DNA of 20,712 nt from a virus. The notes beneath the pieces are model-generated. The model was not told where the DNA came from. It ran no database searches and was given only the letters and a program-made list of their open reading frames with translations. Below, piece after piece: positions 1,611 to 16,930 of this stretch (the first letter of the stretch is position 1; each line of letters begins with the position of its first letter). The position numbers and the translations under genes were made by a program. The stretch is from the IMG/VR virus record IMGVR_UViG_3300042691_009188, positions 1 to 20,712 of that record. One strand, 5' to 3'.

Positions 1611-1757
1611 ATGGAAGAATTAAATCTAATCAAACAAGCTCTTGAGATTGCAACTCAGAAAGGTGCATTTGGAATGAATGACGTAGTAGCGATCTACCAA
1701 ACATTGGCTAAATTAGAAGAAAAACTCAAAGCAAATGAGTCGGAAGGAGCAAATTGA
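1611..1757 (+). CDS. Small helical protein (48 aa)
   Basis: This short gene starts two bases after the preceding stop, with ATG at 1611, and runs 48 codons to TGA at 1755-1757. The protein (MEELNLIKQALEIATQKGAF...) is predominantly alpha-helical and ends in a charged helix (AKLEEKLKANE). It has no signal peptide or membrane segment. It overlaps the next gene by 23 nt in another frame. Its tight coupling on both sides supports a real gene. Small helical proteins of this type occur beside lysis genes in Bacteroidetes phages, but I cannot assign a function. Confidence 0.65.
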   Translation: MEELNLIKQALEIATQKGAFGMNDVVAIYQTLAKLEEKLKANESEGAN

Positions 1758-1932
1758 TTTATTCCTAAATAAATGGATTAGTAGAAAACTTATAGTATTC
1801 ATAGTTGGATCTGTGGGTTTATTTCTAGGTAACATAACTTCTGAGGACTGGGTAATAATATCAACGGCTTATATAGCTATAGAAGGAACAACAAACATTG
1901 TAGAACGCTTAATTAAAGCAAAATCAGCATGA
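1735..1932 (+). CDS. Small membrane protein, holin candidate
   Basis: This 65-aa protein has a charged, amphipathic N-terminus (MSRKEQIDLFLNKWISRK), a hydrophobic segment at about residues 19-33 (LIVFIVGSVGLFLGN) and a second, weaker one at about 39-50 (WVIISTAYIAIE), then a basic tail. The two short hydrophobic segments, the size and the position three genes upstream of the endolysin fit a small holin or an accessory inner-membrane lysis protein. The start overlaps the 48-aa gene by 23 nt, and the stop overlaps the next start by 4 nt. No known holin family signature is recognised, so the role is inferred from topology and neighbours. Confidence 0.65.
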   Translation: MSRKEQIDLFLNKWISRKLIVFIVGSVGLFLGNITSEDWVIISTAYIAIEGTTNIVERLIKAKSA

Positions 1933-2227: not shown

Positions 2228-2689
2228 ATGCAATTATCAAAGAACTTAACATTAGCAGAAGTAATACGGAGTGAGTCTGCAAAAAGGAACGGCATAAGTA
2301 ACGAGCCTACCGCAAAACATATTGAAAACTTTAAAAAATTAGCACTTAAAGTGTTCCAACCAATACGCAGTAATTTCGGCGTGCCAATCCATATATCAAG
2401 TGGTTATCGTAGTGCGGAACTTAATAAGTTTATAAAAGGTAGTGCAACATCGCAACATTGCTCGGGTGAAGCAATTGATATTGATATGGATGGAACAACA
2501 ATAACGAACAAACAAGTATTTGACTTTATAAAAACACATTTAAAGTTTGATCAGCTCATTTGGGAGTTTGGTACAGATAAAAACCCAGATTGGGTACATG
2601 TATCGTATGACGCAGAAGGAATTCAAAGAAATCAAGTATTAAAAGCAATTAAAAAATCCGGAAAAACAATTTATGTACCTTATTCTTAA
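2228..2689 (+). CDS. Endolysin, M15-type zinc peptidase
   Basis: This 153-aa protein carries the M15 metallopeptidase (VanY / D-Ala-D-Ala carboxypeptidase-like) signature: SSGYRS at residues 57-62, a GSATSQH motif ending at His77, EAIDID with Asp84, and WVHVS with His124. His77, Asp84 and His124 are the expected zinc ligands, and acidic residues near WEFG and DW (112-122) are candidates for the catalytic base. The family cleaves peptide bonds in peptidoglycan stem or cross-link peptides, so this is the likely cell-wall-degrading lysin. It has no signal peptide, so release should need the holin candidates upstream. The full length is typical of a single-domain phage M15 lysin. The 3' end overlaps the spanin-like gene by 17 nt. 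Confidence 0.9.
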   Translation: MQLSKNLTLAEVIRSESAKRNGISNEPTAKHIENFKKLALKVFQPIRSNFGVPIHISSGYRSAELNKFIKGSATSQHCSGEAIDIDMDGTTITNKQVFDFIKTHLKFDQLIWEFGTDKNPDWVHVSYDAEGIQRNQVLKAIKKSGKTIYVPYS

Positions 2690-3447: not shown

Positions 3448-5007
3448 ATGTCAGATGGAATTGTAAAGAACCTTAGTTTCGGGATAGAGGCTAGGGACAA
3501 AGTATTTGCTGGTATCAGTAAATTATCAAAAGCCGTTAGTTCTACATTAGGAGCTAGTGGTAAGTGTGTAATGCTGGAGGATGGAACTGGAAATCCTGTA
3601 ATCACAAAAGACGGGGTTACTGTTGCGGACAGTATTATTTTGTTGGATCCAATTGAAAATATGGGAGCGCGCTTATTAAAAGAAGCAGCTCGCAAAACGG
3701 TTAAAGAAGCTGGAGATGGTACAACAACCGCGACAGTATTAGCTCACGCTATTTTAAAAGAGGCTTATAAAGTTCAAGGCAAAGCAAATAGCAGAGATCT
3801 AAAAAAAGATATAGAACACACTTGTGGATTAGTTGTGGATTACTTGGAGAGTATTTCAGTGCCTGTAACAGGGGATATGATTGACCATGTTGCAACAATC
3901 TCTACAAACAATGATAAAGAATTAGGTAAAATAATTGGCGACGCATTTAGAATGGTTGGCGACAATGGCGTTGTAATGATGGAATCATCAACAAGCGCTG
4001 AAACGGAGATTGAATTAATTGAAGGCGTTCAGTATGACAAAGGTTTAATGAACATGCATTTTGTCACAAACTTAAATAAAAAAGCAGCTGAGCTAGATCG
4101 TCCCGCTGTGCTGTTGATTGAGTCACCTGTTGAAAACATAAGACAGATCCAATCAATATTAGAATATGTAATGAAGGCAAATATGTCTTTATTAATTATA
4201 GCGGATATGGAGCCAGCAGTGGTGTCTGTATTAGCAATGAATAAAGTAAAAGGTAATTTCAAAATTAATGTTATTAACGCGCCAACGTATGGCGTTAATA
4301 AAAAAGATACATTAGCTGATCTTGCCGCATTAACAGGAGCGACTGTTATTAATGAAGATCTTGGCGATGATATGGATTTAATATCCGCCGAGCATCTTGG
4401 AAGATGTTTAAGAAGTATTACAACTGAGTCGGAAACAATCATTCAGATTGAAGAATCATCAGAAGAAGTTCTAGAACTAATTAAACACGTTAAAGAGCAA
4501 TTAGAAAAAGCAAAAAATCCAGGTGAAGTTGTAAGACTTGAAAAAAGATTAGCCCGTTTATCAGGTAAAGTTGCTGTTGTAAAAGTGGGTGCTAATTCTG
4601 AAATTGAATTAAAAGAAAAAGCTGATCGCGTGGAAGACGCTATTTGTGCAACAAAAGCCGCGATCAAAGAAGGTATTGTACCTGGAGGTGGAATTGCTTT
4701 AATGGACGCAACAAAAACAATTGGCGCTATAAGTGAAGGTGATTGGGTTTTAATTGACGCAATACAAGCTCCTTATAACACGATATTAGATAATGCAGGT
4801 ATTGGTCCAATGACTGAGGATAATAGAGAGGTTGGACACGGAGCAAATGTAGTTACTGGAGAATATGTAGATATGATTAAGTCTGGCATTATTGATCCAT
4901 TACTTGTGACCAAATCAGCATTAAGAAACGCGGTATCTGTTGCTACAACAATACTATCAACCGATTGTGTAATCAATAACTTACGAGTGAATGAAGGCAA
5001 TAGGTAA
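3448..5007 (+). CDS. groEL: Phage-encoded chaperonin GroEL (Hsp60)
   Basis: This complete 519-aa group I chaperonin would form the ring that encloses and folds substrate proteins using ATP. The equatorial nucleotide site is intact: KDGVTVA with Asp55, GDGTTTATVLA at 89-99 with Asp90, Asp397 in VEDAICATKAA (equivalent of E. coli Asp398, needed for hydrolysis), the GGG at 413-415, and Asp483 in IIDPLLVTKSAL. The apical domain (about 190-370) diverges: the canonical RGYLSPYF reads KGLMNMHF, and the usual APGFGDRRK reads APTYGVNKK. The protein stops after NLRVNEGNR, lacking the GGM-repeat tail. It is about 29 residues shorter than E. coli GroEL. It is followed by an overlapping groES. Phage GroELs are known in some large phages; here one sits among lysis and morphogenesis genes, suggesting it folds virion proteins. 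Confidence 0.97.
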   Translation: MSDGIVKNLSFGIEARDKVFAGISKLSKAVSSTLGASGKCVMLEDGTGNPVITKDGVTVADSIILLDPIENMGARLLKEAARKTVKEAGDGTTTATVLAHAILKEAYKVQGKANSRDLKKDIEHTCGLVVDYLESISVPVTGDMIDHVATISTNNDKELGKIIGDAFRMVGDNGVVMMESSTSAETEIELIEGVQYDKGLMNMHFVTNLNKKAAELDRPAVLLIESPVENIRQIQSILEYVMKANMSLLIIADMEPAVVSVLAMNKVKGNFKINVINAPTYGVNKKDTLADLAALTGATVINEDLGDDMDLISAEHLGRCLRSITTESETIIQIEESSEEVLELIKHVKEQLEKAKNPGEVVRLEKRLARLSGKVAVVKVGANSEIELKEKADRVEDAICATKAAIKEGIVPGGGIALMDATKTIGAISEGDWVLIDAIQAPYNTILDNAGIGPMTEDNREVGHGANVVTGEYVDMIKSGIIDPLLVTKSALRNAVSVATTILSTDCVINNLRVNEGNR

Positions 5008-5254
5008 TAATATAGTTATTCTCCCGAAGAAGTTAGCTGTAACAGATAAAACAAAAGGCGGATTATTATTAAAGGAATCCGATAAAGAAAACATAAGATA
5101 TAAACAAGCAATAGTAATATCTATCAGTGATGAAATTAAGTTCATGGAAGTTGGCGATGAAATTTACTACGACAAGCATGCTGGCCATGAAATAGAGTTT
5201 GAAGGTGATAATTATACTGTTATTAAGATTAGTGATGTTGTTGCGGTATTATGA
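4991..5254 (+). CDS. groES: Phage-encoded co-chaperonin GroES (Hsp10)
   Basis: This 87-aa protein aligns by eye along the GroES fold: an N-terminal strand (AIGNNIVILPKK), a mobile loop at about residues 16-30 with the GroEL-docking GGLLL at 23-27 (E. coli GGIVL), a VGDEIYYDKHAGHEIEFEG core, and the SDVVAVL C-terminal strand (E. coli SDILAIVE). Between the core strands the segment that forms the roof hairpin in E. coli is several residues shorter (ISDEIKFMEVGD), recalling roofless phage T4 Gp31. It should cap the GroEL ring. The start ATG lies 17 nt inside groEL, so translation is probably coupled, and the stop overlaps the next start (ATGA). Gene order is groEL-groES, opposite to most bacterial operons. 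Confidence 0.93.
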   Translation: MKAIGNNIVILPKKLAVTDKTKGGLLLKESDKENIRYKQAIVISISDEIKFMEVGDEIYYDKHAGHEIEFEGDNYTVIKISDVVAVL

Positions 5255-5697
5255 GAAAAATAAGCGCGGATGAATTAAAAAGCATTGGTTTATTTAAGTA
5301 TTACAGATTGGTTAGGAAATGGGCTTGCATTAATAATAATCTTACAGACGCAGATTTAGAATTACTAATATATCTAGACTGTATAGATTTATTTACAAAG
5401 CAAGATTTTATAACGGGTACACATGCATATAGTTGGAATAACAGGCGCTGGAACGATTTACTTAAAGAAGGGTGGATAACAGTATGGAGGAAAAGAAACC
5501 ATACAACCCAAAAGTATCACATATATAAAGTTTCATTAAAGTGCAGACAACTTATAGCTAGAATGTATCGTATATTGCTAGGAGAAGAAGATGTACCCAC
5601 AAGCAAAGCAAGGCGAAAACCAATAAGCAAAAGATCGTATACTGAAAAAGTATTAATCAATGCAATCGATAACTTAAATAAAGACAAAACAAGATGA
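5251..5697 (+). CDS. Winged-helix DNA-binding protein candidate (MarR-like)
   Basis: This 148-aa protein has the outline of a winged helix-turn-helix domain: a helix LTDADLELLIYLDCID (about 32-47), FTKQDF, a candidate recognition helix WNNRRWNDLLKEG, then a basic wing (WITVWRKRNHTTQKYHIYKVS) and a further helix (CRQLIARMYRILL). The C-terminus is strongly basic (SKARRKPISKRSY). MarR-type proteins bind DNA as dimers and regulate transcription; in a late phage region, a DNA-packaging or regulatory role is equally possible. The start overlaps the groES stop (ATGA), placing it in the same transcript. The fold call is by eye; the target and role are unknown. Confidence 0.7.
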   Translation: MRKISADELKSIGLFKYYRLVRKWACINNNLTDADLELLIYLDCIDLFTKQDFITGTHAYSWNNRRWNDLLKEGWITVWRKRNHTTQKYHIYKVSLKCRQLIARMYRILLGEEDVPTSKARRKPISKRSYTEKVLINAIDNLNKDKTR

Positions 5698-6017: not shown

Positions 6018-6245
6018 ATGGATCTAAAAACAAAAGTACACCCATTAACCGCGTTCGATAAAGAAGCAAAAATGTCTGGTGTAGGAGCAAATGCCGTATG
6101 GAATGGCCCATTAGACACAACCGCTTATCCAAAAGGAAAAGGATCTAGCTCAGGTACTTACGGTATAAAATTAAGATTTGATGACCCAAGTTGTGGGTGC
6201 ATGATGCCAATCACTAAAAAAGCAGGAGCTTCTCGCAATGCCTAA
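6018..6245 (+). CDS. Hypothetical small protein
   Basis: This 75-aa protein begins MDLKTKVHPLTAFDKEAKMSG. It starts 12 nt after the previous stop behind an A/T leader. It is Gly/Ser/Lys-rich, with a DPSCGCMMP segment (CxC) near residue 55. It shows no membrane segment and no family I recognise. It overlaps the next gene by 8 nt, indicating co-translation. It belongs to the cluster of small basic proteins upstream of the terminase; no function can be given. Confidence 0.7.
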   Translation: MDLKTKVHPLTAFDKEAKMSGVGANAVWNGPLDTTAYPKGKGSSSGTYGIKLRFDDPSCGCMMPITKKAGASRNA

Positions 6246-6510
6246 AACTGCTGCTTGGACTAGAAAAGAAGGCAAGGATCCTAAAGGGGGATTAAACGCA
6301 AAAGGCGTTGCTAGTTACAGAAGAGAGAACCCAGGATCAAAATTACAAACCGCTGTTACAAAGAAACCGTCGGAATTAAAACCAGGTAGTAAAGACGCTA
6401 AACGCAGAAAATCATTTTGCGCAAGAATGTCTGGAATGCCGGGTCCTATGAAAAAACCAAATGGTGAACCAACTAGAAAAGCATTAGCGTTAAGAAAATG
6501 GAATTGTTAA
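6238..6510 (+). CDS. Small basic phage protein (DUF6321-like)
   Basis: This 90-aa, strongly basic protein contains the conserved run AWTRKEGKDPKGGLNAKG near the N-terminus, then SYRRENPGSKL, and a C-terminal SFCARMSGMPGPMKKPNGEPTRKALAL segment. I recognise this as a family widespread in aquatic phages and, from memory, call it DUF6321; the domain label should be checked. Function is unknown. The high Lys/Arg content suggests contact with nucleic acid or with acidic virion proteins. It overlaps its neighbours on both sides (8 nt upstream, 13 nt downstream). Confidence 0.85.
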   Translation: MPKTAAWTRKEGKDPKGGLNAKGVASYRRENPGSKLQTAVTKKPSELKPGSKDAKRRKSFCARMSGMPGPMKKPNGEPTRKALALRKWNC

Positions 6511-8604: not shown

Positions 8605-8816
8605 GAAAAATAAGTATTGGTGCAGATTATAAAAATGATGCCATGCACTATTCTATCGCGCAAACGGTATATGGTGGACATGAAATCTCTCATATAATGT
8701 TTGACGAAGAGGACAGATCATATAATATTTATATTAAGAAAAACGAAGAGGTAATGCCTTGGAAGAAATTTAACTCTAACATGGCAATATCTGTTGAATA
8801 TGACCTTGAGTATTGA
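8589..8816 (+). CDS. Small conserved phage protein
   Basis: This 75-aa protein, MGRIIRKISIGADYKNDAMH..., alternates short strands and turns. The IRKISIGADYKNDAMHYSI and NEEVMPWKKFN motifs match small proteins I recall from aquatic phages, function unknown. It overlaps the coiled-coil gene by 16 nt and its stop overlaps the next ATG (TGATG), so it is translationally coupled on both sides. Confidence 0.75.
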   Translation: MGRIIRKISIGADYKNDAMHYSIAQTVYGGHEISHIMFDEEDRSYNIYIKKNEEVMPWKKFNSNMAISVEYDLEY

Positions 8817-9421
8817 TGAGAAGTATTTTTGATTTTTTAATTAGACCAGTCGGCGAAAGATACAACAACAAAGTAGACGTTGACGGTAAAGAACTTATAA
8901 TAAACACAAAAATAGAAAGCTTTAGATCGGTTAACAAATTAGCCGAAGTGGTAGCAACTCCTTTGGCATTTAAAACAGATATAAAACCTGGTGATATAAT
9001 TATTGTACACCATAATGTGTTTAGAAGATTTTATGATATAAAAGGAAAGCAAAAAAATAGTAGATCTTATTTTGAAGAGGATTTATATTTTTGTAGTTTA
9101 GACCAAATATATTTATATAAAAGAGAAGGTAACTGGAATTCAGTGAATGACCGTTGCTTTGTTAAACCTATTAAAAATACAGACTATTTAAAGCTAGATA
9201 AAGAACGAAAGCATATTGGTATATTAAAATATGGTAATAGTTCCTTAGATGAGCTTAAAATAAACCGTGGAGACCTTGTTGGGTATACTCCGTTTGGTGA
9301 ATTTGAGTTTTTAATAGATGGGGAGCGATTATATTGTATGAAATCAAATGATATTGTAATTAAATATGAATACAAAGGAGACGAAGCTGAGTATAATCCA
9401 AGCTGGGCGAAGAGCGGTTGA
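8816..9421 (+). CDS. Tandem GroES-like (Cpn10-fold) protein candidate
   Basis: I chose ATG 8816, which overlaps the previous TGA; a TTG at 8813 is in frame but less likely. In the 201-aa product each half resembles the GroES pattern. First half (about 1-103): an N-terminal strand, IKPGDIIIVHHNVFRRF at about 56-72, and a closing DQIYLY. Second half (about 112-188): CFVKPI, NRGDLVGYTPFGEFEFLIDGERLYCM, and a SNDIVIKYE end that parallels the GroES SDILAIVE strand. No GGIVL/GGLLL mobile loop is visible in either half, so canonical GroEL docking is doubtful. I recall related proteins labelled GroES in aquatic phages. With true groEL/groES upstream, a second co-chaperonin or a repurposed structural protein are both possible. 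Confidence 0.65.
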   Translation: MRSIFDFLIRPVGERYNNKVDVDGKELIINTKIESFRSVNKLAEVVATPLAFKTDIKPGDIIIVHHNVFRRFYDIKGKQKNSRSYFEEDLYFCSLDQIYLYKREGNWNSVNDRCFVKPIKNTDYLKLDKERKHIGILKYGNSSLDELKINRGDLVGYTPFGEFEFLIDGERLYCMKSNDIVIKYEYKGDEAEYNPSWAKSG

Positions 9422-9644
9422 GGAACTTGTAAAGGTTGCTCAAGAAGCAATTATAGACAGCGGGGATGATATATCTGCGGACAGATTAAAAAATGCTGCG
9501 GCAACTAAGAAGTTGGCTATATTTGATGCTTTTGAAATTCTTTCTAGGATTGAAATGGAAGAGAAGATGATAATGGATGAAGAATCAGCAAAGAATGATA
9601 CGCAAAAAGTATTTAAAGGATTTGCAGAAGGGAGGTCTAAATAA
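9366..9644 (+). CDS. Small terminase subunit candidate
   Basis: This 92-aa, mostly helical protein, MNTKETKLSIIQAGRRAVEE..., contains a conserved-looking block LVKVAQEAIIDSGDDISADRLKNA and then TKKLAIFDAFEILSRIE. It overlaps the previous gene by 56 nt and ends one base into the TerL start. Its size, helical make-up and position immediately before the large terminase fit a small terminase (DNA-recognition) subunit. No classical TerS helix-turn-helix is obvious, so the name rests mainly on position. The alternative is another packaging accessory. Confidence 0.6.
   Translation: MNTKETKLSIIQAGRRAVEELVKVAQEAIIDSGDDISADRLKNAAATKKLAIFDAFEILSRIEMEEKMIMDEESAKNDTQKVFKGFAEGRSK
9631..9636 (+). promoter_or_regulatory. 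Consensus Shine-Dalgarno site of the terminase gene
   Basis: GGAGGT lies 7 nt before ATG 9644 and is the full consensus core, unlike the A/T leaders of most genes here. It also encodes Gly-Arg of the upstream protein, so coincidence is possible. Confidence 0.55.
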
Positions 9645-11869
9645 TGTACGAGCAATCATTAGTTAAGGTTATTGAGAATTATATAACCCCCGGCACATTA
9701 AAAAAGAATAACAGGTTACAGAAATGGGAATACGGTTATAACAAAGACCATGATATGGTTGTTATAAGCAAAACCGGAAAGATTGGTGAAGTATATGAAA
9801 TACAAAATTTAAAGATAGCTTTGCCATTAATAGAAGACGTATACTCAAGATCTGATAAAAAGGAAGAGCAGCATTGGCAACAATTTGTTTGCCCTAAAGA
9901 AATAGATAAAATAAAAAGTGTATTTGATTGGACTAAACAACCAGAGCATTTCAAAGAGCGATGGTATGATTATATAGATAACGAGTTTAAATACAGAGAT
10001 GAAGGATTTGCTTTTTACAATAACGGCAAACCAACCTACATAACCGGGACTCACTACATGTACTTACAATGGAGCAAAATCGACGTAGGTGCACCTGACT
10101 TCAGGGAATCAAATAGATTATTTTTTATATTTTGGGAAGCTTGCAAGGCTGATCCAAGATGTTATGGAATGTGCTATTTAAAAAATAGACGTTCTGGATT
10201 TTCTTTTATGTCATCAGCAGAGCTTGTAAACCAAGCAACTATATCTAGCGATTCGCGTTTTGGTATATTATCAAAATCCGGAGCTGATGCTAAAAAAATG
10301 TTTACAGACAAAGTCGTACCAATCTCTGTTAATTACCCATTTTTCTTTAAACCAATACAAGACGGTATGGATAGGCCAAAAACAGAATTGGCTTATCGTA
10401 TACCTGCATCAAAACTAACAAGAAGAAAACTAGATTCAAACGAACAGTTAGCAGAGCTCGAAGGGCTTGACACGACTATTGACTGGAAAAATACCGGAGA
10501 CAATAGTTATGATGGTGAAAAGTTAAAGCTGTTAGTTCATGATGAAAGTGGTAAATGGGAACGTCCTGATAATATTCTAAATAACTGGCGTGTAACAAAA
10601 ACAACATTAAGGTTAGGTAGTAGAATTATTGGTAAATGTATGATGGGATCAACATCTAATGCATTAGATAAAGGAGGAGAGAATTTTAAAAAACTCTATT
10701 ATGGTTCAGACGTTACAAAAAGAAACCGCAATGGACAGACTAGTTCAGGATTATATAGTTTGTTTATACCTATGGAGTGGTCCTACGAGGGATTCATTGA
10801 TACTTATGGGGTACCTGTATTCGATACTCCAGAAAAACCGGTAAAAGGTGTTGATGGTAATTGGATTGAGTATGGCGTTATTGAGCATTGGCAAAATGAG
10901 GTTGATGGATTAAAGCAAGACTCAGACGGATTAAATGAATATTACCGTCAGTTTCCAAGAACAGAGCAACACGCATTTAGGGATGAAACAAAGCAATCTT
11001 TGTTTAACCTTACAAAAATATACGAGCAAATAGATTATAATGAGGATCTGCGCAATACTAGCATGGTTACGCGTGGAAATTTCCAATGGGAAAATGGCAT
11101 ACAAGATACAAGAGTACAATTTTATCCTAATAAAGATGGGCGATTCTTAATTTCTTGGGTACCGCCTATACATTTGCAAAACCGTATGATTATAAGAGAT
11201 GGATATAAATATCCAGGTAATGAGCACTGTGGCGCATTTGGTTGTGATAGTTATGATATATCTGGAACAGTTAACGCGAGAGGTTCAAATGGATCGCTGC
11301 ATGGATTGACTAAGTTTTCAATGGAAGACATACCGCCAAATCATTTTTTCTTAGAATATATAGCTAGACCGCAAACATCGGAGATATTTTTTGAAGAGGT
11401 GTTAATGGCACTAGTGTTTTACGGCATGCCAATGCTTGCAGAAAATAATAAGCCAAGGCTATTATATTATTTAAAAAGAAGAGGGTACCGTGGTTACTCC
11501 ATGAATAGACCTGACAAAATATTAAATAAACTTTCGCCATTCGAAAAAGAAGTTGGCGGAATTCCTAACTCTTCAACAGATGTAATGCAAGCGCATGCAT
11601 CAGCTATTGAGACGCATATAGAGCAGCACATTGGATTAAAACAAGAAGGCGAATACGGAACAATGTATTTCCAAAGAACTCTGGAGGATTGGGCTAAATT
11701 TAATATAAATAATAGAACAAATCATGATGCCTCTATTAGTTCAGGATTAGCAATAATGGCTTGCAATAGACACATGTATACACCAATAGCAAAAGTAGAA
11801 AGGCCATCAATTTCTCTTGGATTTAAAAAATACGACAATAAAGGATATAATTCACAAATAATACAATAA
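9644..11869 (+). CDS. terL: Terminase large subunit (TerL), ATPase-nuclease
   Basis: This 741-aa protein would be the motor that pumps DNA into the prohead and cuts the concatemer. The ATPase domain shows a degenerate Walker A at about 179-187 (LKNRRSGFS, without the usual GKS/T), Walker B with Asp300-Glu301 (LLVHDES) and coupling motif GSTSN at 335-339. The nuclease domain (about 525-720) shows Asp535 and Asp538 (FGCDSYD) and Asp695 (NHDAS) as candidate metal ligands. Length and motifs resemble the long terminases of crAss-like and related aquatic phages. It is preceded by a TerS candidate and followed without a gap by the portal (stop 11869, start 11870). A consensus GGAGGT site precedes the start. 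Confidence 0.92.
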   Translation: MYEQSLVKVIENYITPGTLKKNNRLQKWEYGYNKDHDMVVISKTGKIGEVYEIQNLKIALPLIEDVYSRSDKKEEQHWQQFVCPKEIDKIKSVFDWTKQPEHFKERWYDYIDNEFKYRDEGFAFYNNGKPTYITGTHYMYLQWSKIDVGAPDFRESNRLFFIFWEACKADPRCYGMCYLKNRRSGFSFMSSAELVNQATISSDSRFGILSKSGADAKKMFTDKVVPISVNYPFFFKPIQDGMDRPKTELAYRIPASKLTRRKLDSNEQLAELEGLDTTIDWKNTGDNSYDGEKLKLLVHDESGKWERPDNILNNWRVTKTTLRLGSRIIGKCMMGSTSNALDKGGENFKKLYYGSDVTKRNRNGQTSSGLYSLFIPMEWSYEGFIDTYGVPVFDTPEKPVKGVDGNWIEYGVIEHWQNEVDGLKQDSDGLNEYYRQFPRTEQHAFRDETKQSLFNLTKIYEQIDYNEDLRNTSMVTRGNFQWENGIQDTRVQFYPNKDGRFLISWVPPIHLQNRMIIRDGYKYPGNEHCGAFGCDSYDISGTVNARGSNGSLHGLTKFSMEDIPPNHFFLEYIARPQTSEIFFEEVLMALVFYGMPMLAENNKPRLLYYLKRRGYRGYSMNRPDKILNKLSPFEKEVGGIPNSSTDVMQAHASAIETHIEQHIGLKQEGEYGTMYFQRTLEDWAKFNINNRTNHDASISSGLAIMACNRHMYTPIAKVERPSISLGFKKYDNKGYNSQIIQ

Positions 11870-14287
11870 ATGATTTATACTAATACTAATAGTTCTTTCC
11901 CAAATCAGGTAGTACCTGACGAGGTTAAACAAAGTTACGAGTATGGCACCGCGGTTGGTAGAGCTATTGAGAATGAATGGTTTAGAGGAGGAGCTGCTGC
12001 AGTCGGCGGTAGTGATAGATGGAGCGCAAATTGGCAAAGATTTCATACACTAAAGTTGTACGCTAGAGGTGAGCAATCGGTGCAAAAATATAAAGATGAA
12101 TTATCTGTAAATGGGGATTTATCCTATTTGAACATTGATTGGAAGCCTGTGCCTGTGATACCAAAATTTGTTGATATATTAGTGAATGGTATCTCCAGCA
12201 AAAACTATGAAATAAAAGCGTGCGCGCAAGACCCTGAGTCTATAAAACAAAAAACAGAATACGCAAGAGCAATCATGGAAGATATGGCTGCAAAGCAATT
12301 TTTGATGAAGATGCAAGAAAAACTTGGCGTAAATGGTTTTTCACAAGATCCAGCAAAATTACCAGAGGACAAAGAAGAACTTGAAATACACTTACAGTTA
12401 TCATATAAACAAGGAGTAGAGATAGCAGAAGAAGAAGTTATTAATTACATACTTGATAAAAATAAATACGAATTAATCAATAGAAGATTAAACTATGATT
12501 TAACTGTATTAGGTATTGCTGCTGCTAAAACAAGCTGGAATAAAGCTAACGGTATTGTGCTGGATTATGTTGATCCAGCTAATTTGGTATATTCGTATAC
12601 CGAAGATCCAAACTTTGAAGACATTTATTATGCCGGGGAAGTAAAAGCAATACAATTAGAAGAACTTAAAAAAGAATTCCCAGAACTTACAAACGAAGAC
12701 TTAGAGGAAATACAAAAATACCCCGGTGATAATACTTATACTAGAAATTATTATGGGCAGAACTATGATCCTGCCGCCATTAAGGTTTTATATTTTGAGT
12801 ATAAAACATATACTGATCAGGTATTTAAGATTAAACAAACGGAATTTGGATTAGAAAAAGCGTTGGAAAAACCCGACACATTCAATCCTCCTCCAAGTGA
12901 TAACTTTAATAGAGTATCAAGAAGTATAGAGGTATTGTATTCTGGTGCAAAAATACTTGGACACAATAAAATGCTGAAATGGGAAATGTGTGAAAATATG
13001 ACCCGTCCTGTAGCAGATACCACAAAGGTAGAGATGAATTACGCTATCTGTGCTCCAAGAATGTATAAAGGACGCATAGAGTCTATTGTTAGTAGAATAA
13101 CTGGATTTGCTGACATTATTCAATTAACACATTTAAAACTTCAACAGGTATTATCAAGAATGGTCCCAGATGGAGTATTTATGGATGTTGATGGATTAAT
13201 GGAAGTCGATCTTGGTAATGGCACAAAATACAATCCAGCCGAAGCGTTAAATATGTATTTCCAAACCGGTAGTATTGTTGGTAGATCACAAACGCAAGAC
13301 GGTACCGGCAACCCAGCTAGAGTGCCAATACAGGAATTGCAAACATCGAATGGTAATGCAAAAATACAGTCATTAATATCTACATACCAGTATTATCTAC
13401 AAATGATACGAGATGTAACCGGATTAAATGAAGCTAGAGACGCAAGTACACCTGATCCGAAAGCATTAGTTGGTTTGCAAAAATTAGCAGCGGCAAACTC
13501 AAACACTGCGACCAGACATATATTGCAAGCTAGTTTGTATTTAACATTAAGACTTTGTGAGAATATATCTTTAAGAGTAGCGGATTCTTTAAGGTTCCCT
13601 CTTACCGCGCAAGCATTGAAAGAAAGTATATCTACTTTTAATGTTAAAACATTGGAAGAATTAATGAATCTTAATTTGCATGACTTTGGTATATTCTTAG
13701 AGTTAGAGCCTGATGAAGAAGAGAAGGCGCAGTTAGAACAAAATATACAAATTGCATTACAATCTGGTGGTATTGATCTTGAAGACGCGATTGATTTAAG
13801 ACAAATAAGAAACCTTAAACTCGCTAATCAATCTTTAAAATACAAAAGAAAGAAAAAATTAGAAAGAGATCAAGCAAATCAACAAGCAAATATACAAGCA
13901 CAAGCACAAGCAAACGCACAATTAGCAGAGCAGACCGCAATGTCCGAAGTTCAAAAACAACAAGCTTTAGCTCAAACAGAAATACAAATACAACAAGCAA
14001 AAGCGCAATTTGAAATACAAAAATTACAGCAAGAACTTCAAATAAAGCAACAATTAATGGCTCAAGAGTTTCAGTACAATATGCAATTAGCTCAAGCCCA
14101 ATTAGGTGCACAACAGAAAAAAATAAACGATATAGAAGACCGTAAAGATAAGCGAGTTAAAATGCAAGCTACTCAGCAAAGCGAGTTAATCGATCAAAGG
14201 AAAAATGATACAATGCCTAAAAACTTTGAATCAGAGTTTGATAATGTGAGTAGCGGGTTTGGCTTAGGCACTCTAGATCAAATGTAA
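11870..14287 (+). CDS. Portal protein
   Basis: This 805-aa protein follows TerL directly, the standard position for a portal. The N-terminal part (YEYGTAVGRAIENEWFRGG, then RFHTLKLYARGEQSVQKYK and a VDILVNGISSKNYEI segment) matches the large portals I recall from crAss-like and related phages. The central part has YDLTVLGIAAAKTSWN followed by a VDPANLVYSYTEDP motif. Residues about 667-750 are an unusually Gln/Ala-rich helix that would extend the barrel or crown into the capsid. It would form the dodecameric vertex ring through which DNA enters and leaves, contacting TerL during packaging and the connector proteins afterwards. Assignment rests on size, order and recalled family likeness. Confidence 0.88.
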   Translation: MIYTNTNSSFPNQVVPDEVKQSYEYGTAVGRAIENEWFRGGAAAVGGSDRWSANWQRFHTLKLYARGEQSVQKYKDELSVNGDLSYLNIDWKPVPVIPKFVDILVNGISSKNYEIKACAQDPESIKQKTEYARAIMEDMAAKQFLMKMQEKLGVNGFSQDPAKLPEDKEELEIHLQLSYKQGVEIAEEEVINYILDKNKYELINRRLNYDLTVLGIAAAKTSWNKANGIVLDYVDPANLVYSYTEDPNFEDIYYAGEVKAIQLEELKKEFPELTNEDLEEIQKYPGDNTYTRNYYGQNYDPAAIKVLYFEYKTYTDQVFKIKQTEFGLEKALEKPDTFNPPPSDNFNRVSRSIEVLYSGAKILGHNKMLKWEMCENMTRPVADTTKVEMNYAICAPRMYKGRIESIVSRITGFADIIQLTHLKLQQVLSRMVPDGVFMDVDGLMEVDLGNGTKYNPAEALNMYFQTGSIVGRSQTQDGTGNPARVPIQELQTSNGNAKIQSLISTYQYYLQMIRDVTGLNEARDASTPDPKALVGLQKLAAANSNTATRHILQASLYLTLRLCENISLRVADSLRFPLTAQALKESISTFNVKTLEELMNLNLHDFGIFLELEPDEEEKAQLEQNIQIALQSGGIDLEDAIDLRQIRNLKLANQSLKYKRKKKLERDQANQQANIQAQAQANAQLAEQTAMSEVQKQQALAQTEIQIQQAKAQFEIQKLQQELQIKQQLMAQEFQYNMQLAQAQLGAQQKKINDIEDRKDKRVKMQATQQSELIDQRKNDTMPKNFESEFDNVSSGFGLGTLDQM

Positions 14288-15484: not shown

Positions 15485-16930
15485 ATGGCTTTTACATCAC
15501 CAAGCGGTGCGTTCGGAAGTATCGTACCATCACAAGTGCAACAAGCGCTTGCTACAAATTATTTAACCTTTGACAGTGCGTCTGGAGGAGGCACATTTGC
15601 TAAACAGTATTTACCTGAAATCTACGAAAATGAAGTAGAGCGTTATGGAAACAGAACGCTTTCTGGATTCTTACGTATGGTTGGCGCTGAAATGCCGATG
15701 ACTTCAGATCAGGTTATTTGGTCAGAACAAAATCGTTTGCACATTGCTTACAATAATGTTTCTACCACAGCTACTGCAAACCAAGTGTCGTTTACTGAGT
15801 CTGCTACTATTGTTAACGTTATCAGCGTTGGCTCTACTGTAGTTATTATGAACCCTGCTACTGGAGCTGAAGCAAAATGTTATGTTTCTGCTAGTACAGC
15901 GCCTGGAACTGGTACAGCTTTGCTTACATTGCTTCCATACACAGCCGCTTCTTTGTCTGCTGCTGGATTTGCTGTTTCTTTAAGCGGATTCAAAATCTTT
16001 GTATACGGTTCTGAATATTCAAAAGGATCAGCAATTAACTCTAACTACGTTTCAGTTGCGCCTTCATTCACTCAGTATTCAAATTCGCCAATTATCATCC
16101 GTTCGAAATACACCGTAAATGGTTCGGATACGGCTCAAATTGGATGGGTAGATGTTGCAACAGAAGATGGCGCTACTGGATACTTATGGTATTTGAAAGC
16201 TGCTTCTGAAACTCGTTTGCGTTTTGAAGACTACTTAGAAATGTCTGTTGTTGAAGGTGAATTAGCCGCTGCTGCTTCTGCCGCTATTGGATTTACACCT
16301 CCTAATGGCACGGCATTAAAAGGAACTCAAGGTTTATTTGCTGCTATTAAAGCTCGCGGTAACCAAGTAACAGGATTCTCTGCCGCAGCTGGTATCACTA
16401 ACTTCGATGCGGTGTTGAAAAACTTAGATACTCAAGGAGCGATTGAAGAGAACATGCTGTTCTTAAACCGTCAAACCTCATTAGATTTCGATGATATGCT
16501 TGCTGCATTGTCTTCTGGATCTGCTGGCGGAGTTGCTTATGGTTTATTTGAAAACTCAGAGCAAATGTCTTTGAACTTAGGATTTACTGGCTTCCGTCGT
16601 GGATCTTATGATTTCTACAAAACTGACTGGAAATATTTGAATGATGCCTCTACTCGTGGAGCTGTTGCTAGCAATGCTATTGATGGCGTATTGATTCCAG
16701 CTGGAACATCTACCGTTTACGATGAGCAATTAGGAACAAATATTCGTCGTCCTTTCTTACACGTTCGTTACCGTGCTTCTCAAGCAGATGACCGTCGTAT
16801 GAAATCTTGGACAACTGGATCTGTTGGAGGTGCTTACACTTCTGATCTTGATGCAATGGAGATTCACTTCTTGTCTGAAAGATGTTTATGCGTACAAGCT
16901 GCTAACAACTTTGTATTGTTTACAGCATAG
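15485..16930 (+). CDS. Major capsid protein (crAss-like / HK97-fold type)
   Basis: This 481-aa protein begins MAFTSPSGAFGSIVPSQVQQ. It is Ala/Ser/Gly/Thr-rich, with an inserted beta-rich, low-charge region at about 95-190 and a conserved C-terminal half including FEDYLEMSVVEGELAAAAS, MLFLNRQTSLDFDDML and the C-terminal LHVRYRASQADDRRM. It resembles the capsid proteins of crAss-like and related aquatic phages from memory. Position after portal and scaffold supports this. Arginine codons are 16 CGT, 1 CGC and 2 AGA by my count, whereas the portal uses mostly AGA, a sign of selection for high expression. A stem-loop follows its stop. The HK97 fold is expected for such proteins, not demonstrated here. 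Confidence 0.9.
   Translation: MAFTSPSGAFGSIVPSQVQQALATNYLTFDSASGGGTFAKQYLPEIYENEVERYGNRTLSGFLRMVGAEMPMTSDQVIWSEQNRLHIAYNNVSTTATANQVSFTESATIVNVISVGSTVVIMNPATGAEAKCYVSASTAPGTGTALLTLLPYTAASLSAAGFAVSLSGFKIFVYGSEYSKGSAINSNYVSVAPSFTQYSNSPIIIRSKYTVNGSDTAQIGWVDVATEDGATGYLWYLKAASETRLRFEDYLEMSVVEGELAAAASAAIGFTPPNGTALKGTQGLFAAIKARGNQVTGFSAAAGITNFDAVLKNLDTQGAIEENMLFLNRQTSLDFDDMLAALSSGSAGGVAYGLFENSEQMSLNLGFTGFRRGSYDFYKTDWKYLNDASTRGAVASNAIDGVLIPAGTSTVYDEQLGTNIRRPFLHVRYRASQADDRRMKSWTTGSVGGAYTSDLDAMEIHFLSERCLCVQAANNFVLFTA

Follow-up and report, generated by a model that had tools for sequence, protein, structure and literature searches.

A phage GroEL-GroES pair and a putative tandem co-chaperonin in a relative of Elemovirus and Pervagoviridae

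Introduction

Why would a phage carry complete groEL and groES genes within its late region, in the order opposite to that of bacteria, and which proteins would the products fold? The question is raised by an IMG/VR record in which an overlapping groEL-groES pair lies among late genes, and for which a sequence-only reading had proposed dedicated folding of virion proteins. In phage T4, the co-chaperonin gp31 is linked to the formation of heads.

GroEL is already known from publications on this phage lineage, being present in 36 of 78 ‘group 2’ genomes (Nishimura 2017, PMC5332604); mass spectrometry has detected the GroEL of Cellulophaga phage phi38:1 (PMC13288928), and both GroEL and GroES have been noted in phage Panino (PMC11590407). 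Because of that earlier publication (PMC5332604), the pair by itself is not new, and the groEL-groES pair alone is, in part, already a known trait of its phage family. Here, we report how the pair is conserved, how its GroEL departs from the host type, and that a second, putatively tandem co-chaperonin gene, which we call ES2, is encoded in the same late region.

Results

The phage and its late genes

The window, by which we mean the whole stretch of DNA analysed, is an entire IMG/VR record of 20,712 bases and a fragment of a larger phage genome. Its late genes, all on the plus strand, run in the order tail-fibre-like, lysis, groEL, groES, winged helix, small genes, ES2, a 92-aa protein, terL, portal and capsid-like (Table 1). 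The pair thus stands where it was first read to stand, with the lysis genes (a holin-like ORF and an M15 endolysin) upstream and the small genes and TerL downstream.

Table 1. Features of the late region in the window
Feature	Position	Strand	Description	Evidence
Holin-like ORF (weak)	1735-1932	+	Upstream of groEL	
M15 endolysin	2228-2689	+	Upstream of groEL	
groEL	3448..5007	+	Group I chaperonin subunit, 519 aa, GGM tail absent	PF00118 over full length, residues 26-510, E 3.4e-55; phrog_5725 ‘chaperonin groEL’, 7e-131
groES	4991..5254	+	Single-domain co-chaperonin, 87 aa, mobile loop KTKGGLLL	PF00166 over residues 2-86, E 4.5e-13, above cut-off; phrog_3188
groEL/groES overlap	4991..5007	+	17 nt; groES ATG within groEL codons NEGNR-stop	Direct sequence
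Winged-helix gene	5251..5697	+	MarR-like winged-helix protein, 148 aa, 4-nt overlap with groES	AlphaFold pLDDT 82.6; Foldseek
ES2	8816..9421	+	Putative tandem GroES-like co-chaperonin, 201 aa	phrog_13932, 4e-23; hhalign; AlphaFold model
92-aa protein gene	9366..9644	+	Between ES2 and terL; possibly small-terminase-like	Weak match to phi38:1 TerL N-terminal extension
terL	9644..11869	+	Terminase large subunit; anchor for ES2 and for phage classification	phrog_6681, 5e-168
Portal gene	11870..14287	+	Portal protein; possible chaperonin client	phrog_6547, 4.7e-149
Virion protein gene	15485..16930	+	Major-capsid position; possible client	phrog_13704 ‘virion structural protein’, 4.6e-91

TerL of the window is 64.6% identical to that of the Manatee Spring podovirus MW202828 and 44% identical to those of the Flavobacterium elemo phages. 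At E<1e-5, tblastn with TerL gave 87 matches, and the relatives found were phages of Flavobacterium (elemo), Cellulophaga, Tenacibaculum and Maribacter and the Manatee Spring phages only. None of the 87 was crAss-like, and the first impression of a crAss-like-looking genome did not survive at family level, although a deeper kinship is possible. By this comparison the window phage is a relative of Elemovirus and Pervagoviridae, and since every cultured relative infects Bacteroidota, its host is probably a member of that phylum.

Several neighbouring genes deserve a brief description. The winged-helix protein has MarR-family proteins as its top Foldseek matches (E 2e-3 or weaker), and its gene lies immediately 3’ of groES in nearly all clade loci. 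In elemo, MW202828 and Panino, a homologue is close to groES on the opposite strand. Because the phi38:1 homologue is distant from groEL, we rejected a chaperonin-specific regulator, and a general phage regulator is more likely. A promoter scan of the region returned fewer sites than in shuffles and was uninformative. The 92-aa protein weakly matches the N-terminal helical extension of phi38:1 TerL (29% over 79 aa, E 0.012, in a five-sequence set); longer TerL proteins (876-879 aa) with this extension are found in phi38:1, elemo and Panino (L002, L084, L085). It is possible that the 92-aa gene encodes a small-terminase-like piece that is fused to TerL in some lineages and separate in the window. 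At 6238-6510, a 90-aa protein matches the C-termini of many phage families unrelated to one another (phrog_4689, 3477, 727 and others), and is apparently a widespread small phage domain without an assigned role.

Conservation of the groEL-groES pair

The GroES of the window aligns with host GroES by hhalign at 98.0% over 83 columns; its mobile loop aligns with GGIVL, and the hydrophobic triad that marks a Cpn10 is present. To the 80 IMG/VR loci that encode GroEL at 69-92% identity we added the window, its own record re-fetched (L003), MW202828 and elemoA, and compared the 84 sequences. Every one of them (84/84, i.e. all 82 other loci) had groEL followed by groES on a single strand, and the gap between the two genes was exactly -17 nt in 62/84 sequences, or 60/82 other loci. 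For five close pairs, dN/dS was 0.02-0.11 in groEL, 0.00-0.08 in groES and 0.02-0.11 in ES2, values by which all three genes are under strong purifying selection in the window’s clade. Since 82 other loci keep the same order, 60 of them with the same 17-nt overlap, and selection is strongly purifying, the pair is attributable neither to chance nor to a misjoin. The start of groES 17 nt inside groEL, already pointed out from the sequence, is confirmed by the bases common to both genes.

Two observations on individual records may be added. In three loci, an insert of 361-374 nt sits exactly at the groEL/groES junction with the groES start intact (L053:9424-9784, L054:4043-4403, L074:9555-9928); judged by eye, its small ORF resembles a homing endonuclease gene of the zinc-finger HNH or endonuclease VII type. 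The record of L047 (G010; 67,575 bases) has groES at both ends, 925-1182 and 67306-67563, and therefore suggests a complete genome of about 66.4 kb with a terminal overlap.

In nine further records of the wider family groEL again came first, and groES followed at a distance of -20 to 381 nt, or of 3.3 kb in one case. The exception was phi38:1, in which the arrangement is groES-x-groEL among replication genes, unlike the overlapping groEL-groES of the window’s late region. The late-region position of the pair was constant only in the window’s own clade: elemoA has groEL-groES on the strand opposite the late genes, and in Panino the pair is far from terL.

A GroEL with intact catalysis, a changed apical face and eroded inter-ring contacts

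Catalytic residues D52, D87, D398, G415 and D495 (E. coli numbering) were found in 100% of 88 unique clade sequences. Together with the full-length PF00118 match, this upholds the initial description of a complete GroEL with intact ATPase residues. The window GroEL shares 40% identity with E. coli GroEL. Relative to the latter, the apical face, where GroES and substrate bind, carries V263A and V264M in 100%, Y199L in 97%, L234Q in 95% and Y203H in 81% of the clade; F204 and L237 are unchanged. By this pattern, the apical face has changed and become fixed in a new state.

At eight inter-ring positions, mean conservation in the clade was 0.54 versus 0.81 at random equatorial positions (P 0.0035), whereas in hosts these positions did not differ from the rest in conservation (0.80, P 0.46). 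E434 lies in a segment that is deleted in all clade sequences, N467 in one that is deleted in 93%, and the contacts of the double ring (K105, A109, E434, R452, E461, S463, V464) were not conserved in the clade. GroELs of the wider family are also without the full host set of inter-ring residues. From its sequence, the protein is still a group I chaperonin, and the inter-ring loss lowers only the expectation of a standard double ring.

Mitochondrial and other phage Cpn60s also depart at inter-ring contacts. Since the inter-ring contacts are eroded and the apical face is re-set, we predict weak ring pairing and a dedicated lid; by analogy with established work on GroEL single-ring mutants and with reports on phages EL and OBP, the rings are predicted to be single or weakly paired. 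Chaperonins of EL and OBP form single rings (PMC5934643).

ES2, a second candidate co-chaperonin

ES2, close to terL, was absent from the sequence-only reading. Its mechanical ORF opens at TTG 8813, and the ATG at 8816 fits its relatives. ES2 matches phrog_13932 ‘co-chaperonin GroES’ over its whole length. Residues 105-186 (barrel 2) are a GroES homologue (hhalign 95.6-96.6% over 73-84 columns); residues 1-104 (barrel 1) match GroES weakly (10-15%, or 62% with phi38:1 as the lead sequence). By sequence, an internal repeat between the barrels was not detected (D1 vs D2 5-7%), and a search of the ES2 sequence against the PDB returned no significant match.

The AlphaFold model of ES2 (pLDDT 76, pTM 0.71) has as its best PDB match 7ekq_R, the Cpn20 of the Chlamydomonas ClpP-co-chaperonin complex (Foldseek E 9.8e-6; VIA Z 10.1, 157 aligned, model range 1-185). 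This was the only PDB match that spans both halves of ES2, while single GroES chains matched the second half only (Z 6-8). The loop of barrel 1 has 31-32 residues and carries the triad LII, LIL or LIV, which was hydrophobic at 3/3 positions in 82% and at least 2/3 in 99.5% of 193 unique ES2 sequences. A low-confidence stretch of the model (residues 30-38) falls within this loop, with the triad just before it, and one profile alignment (hhalign, phi38:1 lead) puts the triad segment on the GroES mobile loop. In barrel 2, nearly all members have a short loop of 16-18 residues, with a longer one in phi38:1 and a single contig, so that ES2 may dock by its first barrel only, or not at all. ES2 looks like two GroES-like units fused in tandem, barrel 2 being assigned by profile and barrel 1 on a model with mean pLDDT 76; because the barrel-2 loop is not full length, we class it as Cpn20-like, not as a Cpn20.

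Co-occurrence of the three genes, and two other roles for ES2

GroEL, GroES and ES2 were all encoded in 21/21 large records of the window’s clade, five of which had been recruited by ES2 alone. Among the loci recruited by ES2, terL was downstream in 79/79, and groEL and groES were present in 19/19 with at least 8.5 kb upstream. The wider-family set had terL downstream of ES2 in 67/68, and elemo, Callevirus, Panino and MW202828 each have an ES2 homologue adjacent to terL. On this evidence, the gene that stays in the packaging cluster is ES2, not groEL-groES. Divergence of groEL, groES and ES2 tracks that of terL (matrix correlation r 0.55-0.93). ES2 is probably the gene behind the ‘chaperonin cpn10’ that is named as a core protein of Pervagoviridae (Bartlau 2021, PMC8776804); the consulted parts of PMC5332604 and PMC8776804, which note GroEL or ‘cpn10’, do not mention its tandem nature.

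In a more distant set of 17 records with ES2, nine encode GroEL together with a strong single-domain GroES and the other eight encode neither. Thus GroEL and GroES go together, and ES2, found in all 17, behaves as a core gene. A strict dependence of ES2 on phage GroEL, which we had considered, was therefore not upheld in the wider family, where GroEL is found in 9/17 records. The same distribution would fit a division of labour in which ES2 caps the host GroEL in the manner of gp31 and the phage GroEL-GroES works on its own as a distinct pair with other clients, and T4 gp31 provides the precedent of a phage lid on host GroEL. Set against this, the eight contigs lacking GroEL may be fragments, ES2 is always accompanied by phage GroEL in the near-complete genomes of the window’s clade (21/21), and with its two domains it is not a gp31-type single-domain lid. 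We consider such a division possible but unlikely.

ES2 might also have left the chaperonin role. It would then be a GroES-fold packaging or head-assembly factor (e.g. a partner of the terminase) with no chaperonin partner, next to an ordinary phage GroEL/GroES that tops up host folding. Its constant place beside terL, its presence on contigs without GroEL, the weak GroES likeness of barrel 1 and the short barrel-2 loop are all in keeping with this, but the conserved hydrophobic triad of barrel 1 aligns with the GroES mobile loop, the sole structural match over both halves is a co-chaperonin, and the re-set apical face of GroEL speaks against simple host support. Moreover, the ES2 gene of phi38:1 (gp089) was not annotated as structural from virion data, whereas the portal and several neighbours were. 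We hold a packaging role of this kind to be rather improbable, and prefer to read ES2 as a lid of the phage’s own chaperonin.

Origin of the phage GroEL

GroEL trees were built with IQ-TREE (LG+C20 PMSF) from 58 GroELs, and also from 47 rows. All 25 family GroELs form one group (94/87), which includes neither the Bacteroidota hosts nor other phages, e.g. DAC16 and the Vibrio phages. Several family branches are long, so their deep placement is unsure. Host-type pairs had the order groES-groEL in 74/74, and one metagenome (MAG) bin holds both a host pair in that order, with a GroEL that groups with Bacteroidota, and phage contigs with groEL-groES at other places. Thus the groEL-first order noted at the outset is indeed reversed relative to bacteria, and the two checks proposed with it, for transfer from a host of the same gene order and for a misjoined contig, both came out in favour of a phage locus, the block recurring in independent contigs and isolates.

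The closest cellular GroEL matches are from Bacteroidota (40-42% identity), and a tree joining the family to Bacteroidota was not rejected (AU p 0.27), so that an old Bacteroidota host origin is possible. Those two results could also be cited for recent uptake of a groE operon from a host or for the misjoining of a host contig, but with the host order opposite, the host and phage copies of one MAG bin differing in order and place, and the same gene block in 80 IMG/VR contigs and complete phage genomes, we rejected this reading as extremely improbable from the locus comparison, the host gene order and the GroEL trees. The evidence supports a genuine, phage-adapted chaperonin pair that has descended with the phage and was not acquired from a host in recent times.

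Some database labels around these loci need care. Three phage contigs of the family, L086, L087 and L088, were placed in MAG bins that bear the names Aliivibrio and Euryarchaeota and would lead host prediction astray. The phage-named record CAKLQF020000019.1 (L255) holds an ordinary bacterial groES-groEL operon amid metabolic genes, and entries of this kind make phage GroEL seem commoner than it is.

Discussion

We propose, with fair though not high confidence, that the phage encodes its own group I chaperonin machine, which is expressed late, has two types of lid and probably serves head proteins. A phage-made GroEL ring ATPase would enclose phage proteins under a phage-made lid. The frame overlap would couple groES translation to that of groEL and give a fixed ratio late in infection. 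The chamber would fold phage proteins that are made in bulk or are hard to fold, most likely head proteins; the gene position and the precedent of T4 gp31 make these the probable clients, and we infer, as the sequence-only reading did, dedicated folding of virion proteins by the pair. The lids would dock via the hydrophobic triad of a mobile loop (GLLL in GroES; LII, LIL or LIV in ES2 barrel 1), and the GroEL apical face may have changed in step with these triads. As a second, head-related lid, ES2 would be produced from the packaging cluster and either take the place of GroES or act together with it. Because the inter-ring contacts are lost, the rings may work singly or pair weakly.

The closest known systems share parts of this design. 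By TerL, portal and ES2, phi38:1 and related marine Bacteroidetes phages belong to the phage family of the window, and the GroELs fall in one group; phi38:1 likewise has groEL, a Cpn10 gene and an ES2 homologue before terL. Elemovirus (elemoA) and MW202828 resemble the window in having groEL then groES, with ES2 upstream of terL. GroEL identity is 39% for elemoA, and for MW202828 it is 35% despite a TerL identity of 65%. T4 gp31 has the GroES fold and matches ES2 barrel 2 (VIA Z 5.3-5.7), but it is a single domain that works with host GroEL, whereas the window phage brings its own GroEL and two lids. A short roof loop in the phage GroES was considered as a gp31-like enlargement of the cage and dropped, as the GroES of Bacteroidota hosts is shortened there too. 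The chaperonins of EL and OBP are phage GroEL relatives with reported weak ring pairing, a feature that is predicted for the window GroEL; EL showed no interaction with E. coli GroES and OBP reportedly needs no co-chaperonin, unlike the window GroEL, which has its own GroES (PMC7185714, PMC5934643). The literature searched, to which the principal overview of viral chaperonins (Marine et al. 2017) did not belong, contained no description of a tandem phage co-chaperonin or of lost inter-ring contacts in such a system.

Chloroplast Cpn20 (7ekq_R) is like ES2 in having about 20 kDa and two GroES-like barrels in a row, alongside a single-domain Cpn10. ES2 differs in its 12-14% identity, in a barrel 2 without a full-length loop, in its phage origin and in its place next to terL, and the comparison at this identity gave no sign of shared ancestry of the two fusions. 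The apicoplast, a relict chloroplast, also has a tandem co-chaperonin. The review literature calls tandem co-chaperonins chloroplast-specific (PMC5780408). In 7ekq, one Cpn11, two Cpn20 and one Cpn23 chains sum to seven barrels; plastid Cpn10/Cpn20 hetero-oligomers carry seven GroES domains (PMC5780408, PMC4242682), and plant Cpn10(1) is functional only with Cpn20 (PMC4242682). By count, three ES2 and one GroES would likewise give the seven barrels that the ring needs. It is conceivable, if distinctly doubtful, that a mixed asymmetric lid of this composition sits on a largely single-ring GroEL, as an independently evolved, plastid-like hetero-oligomer in which ES2 steers the chamber to head proteins.

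If the proposal of a phage-encoded machine with two lids is true, a phage family with GroEL and both single and double GroES would offer an independent and genetically simple case. It would open the questions of how even-numbered lids sit on a seven-fold ring, how general mixed lids are, and whether a lid can direct the chamber to particular clients, and chaperonins that give up inter-ring contacts yet keep a lid would have a clear test case in it. Cultured relatives, the elemo phages on Flavobacterium and phi38:1 and Calle on Cellulophaga, make these questions testable.
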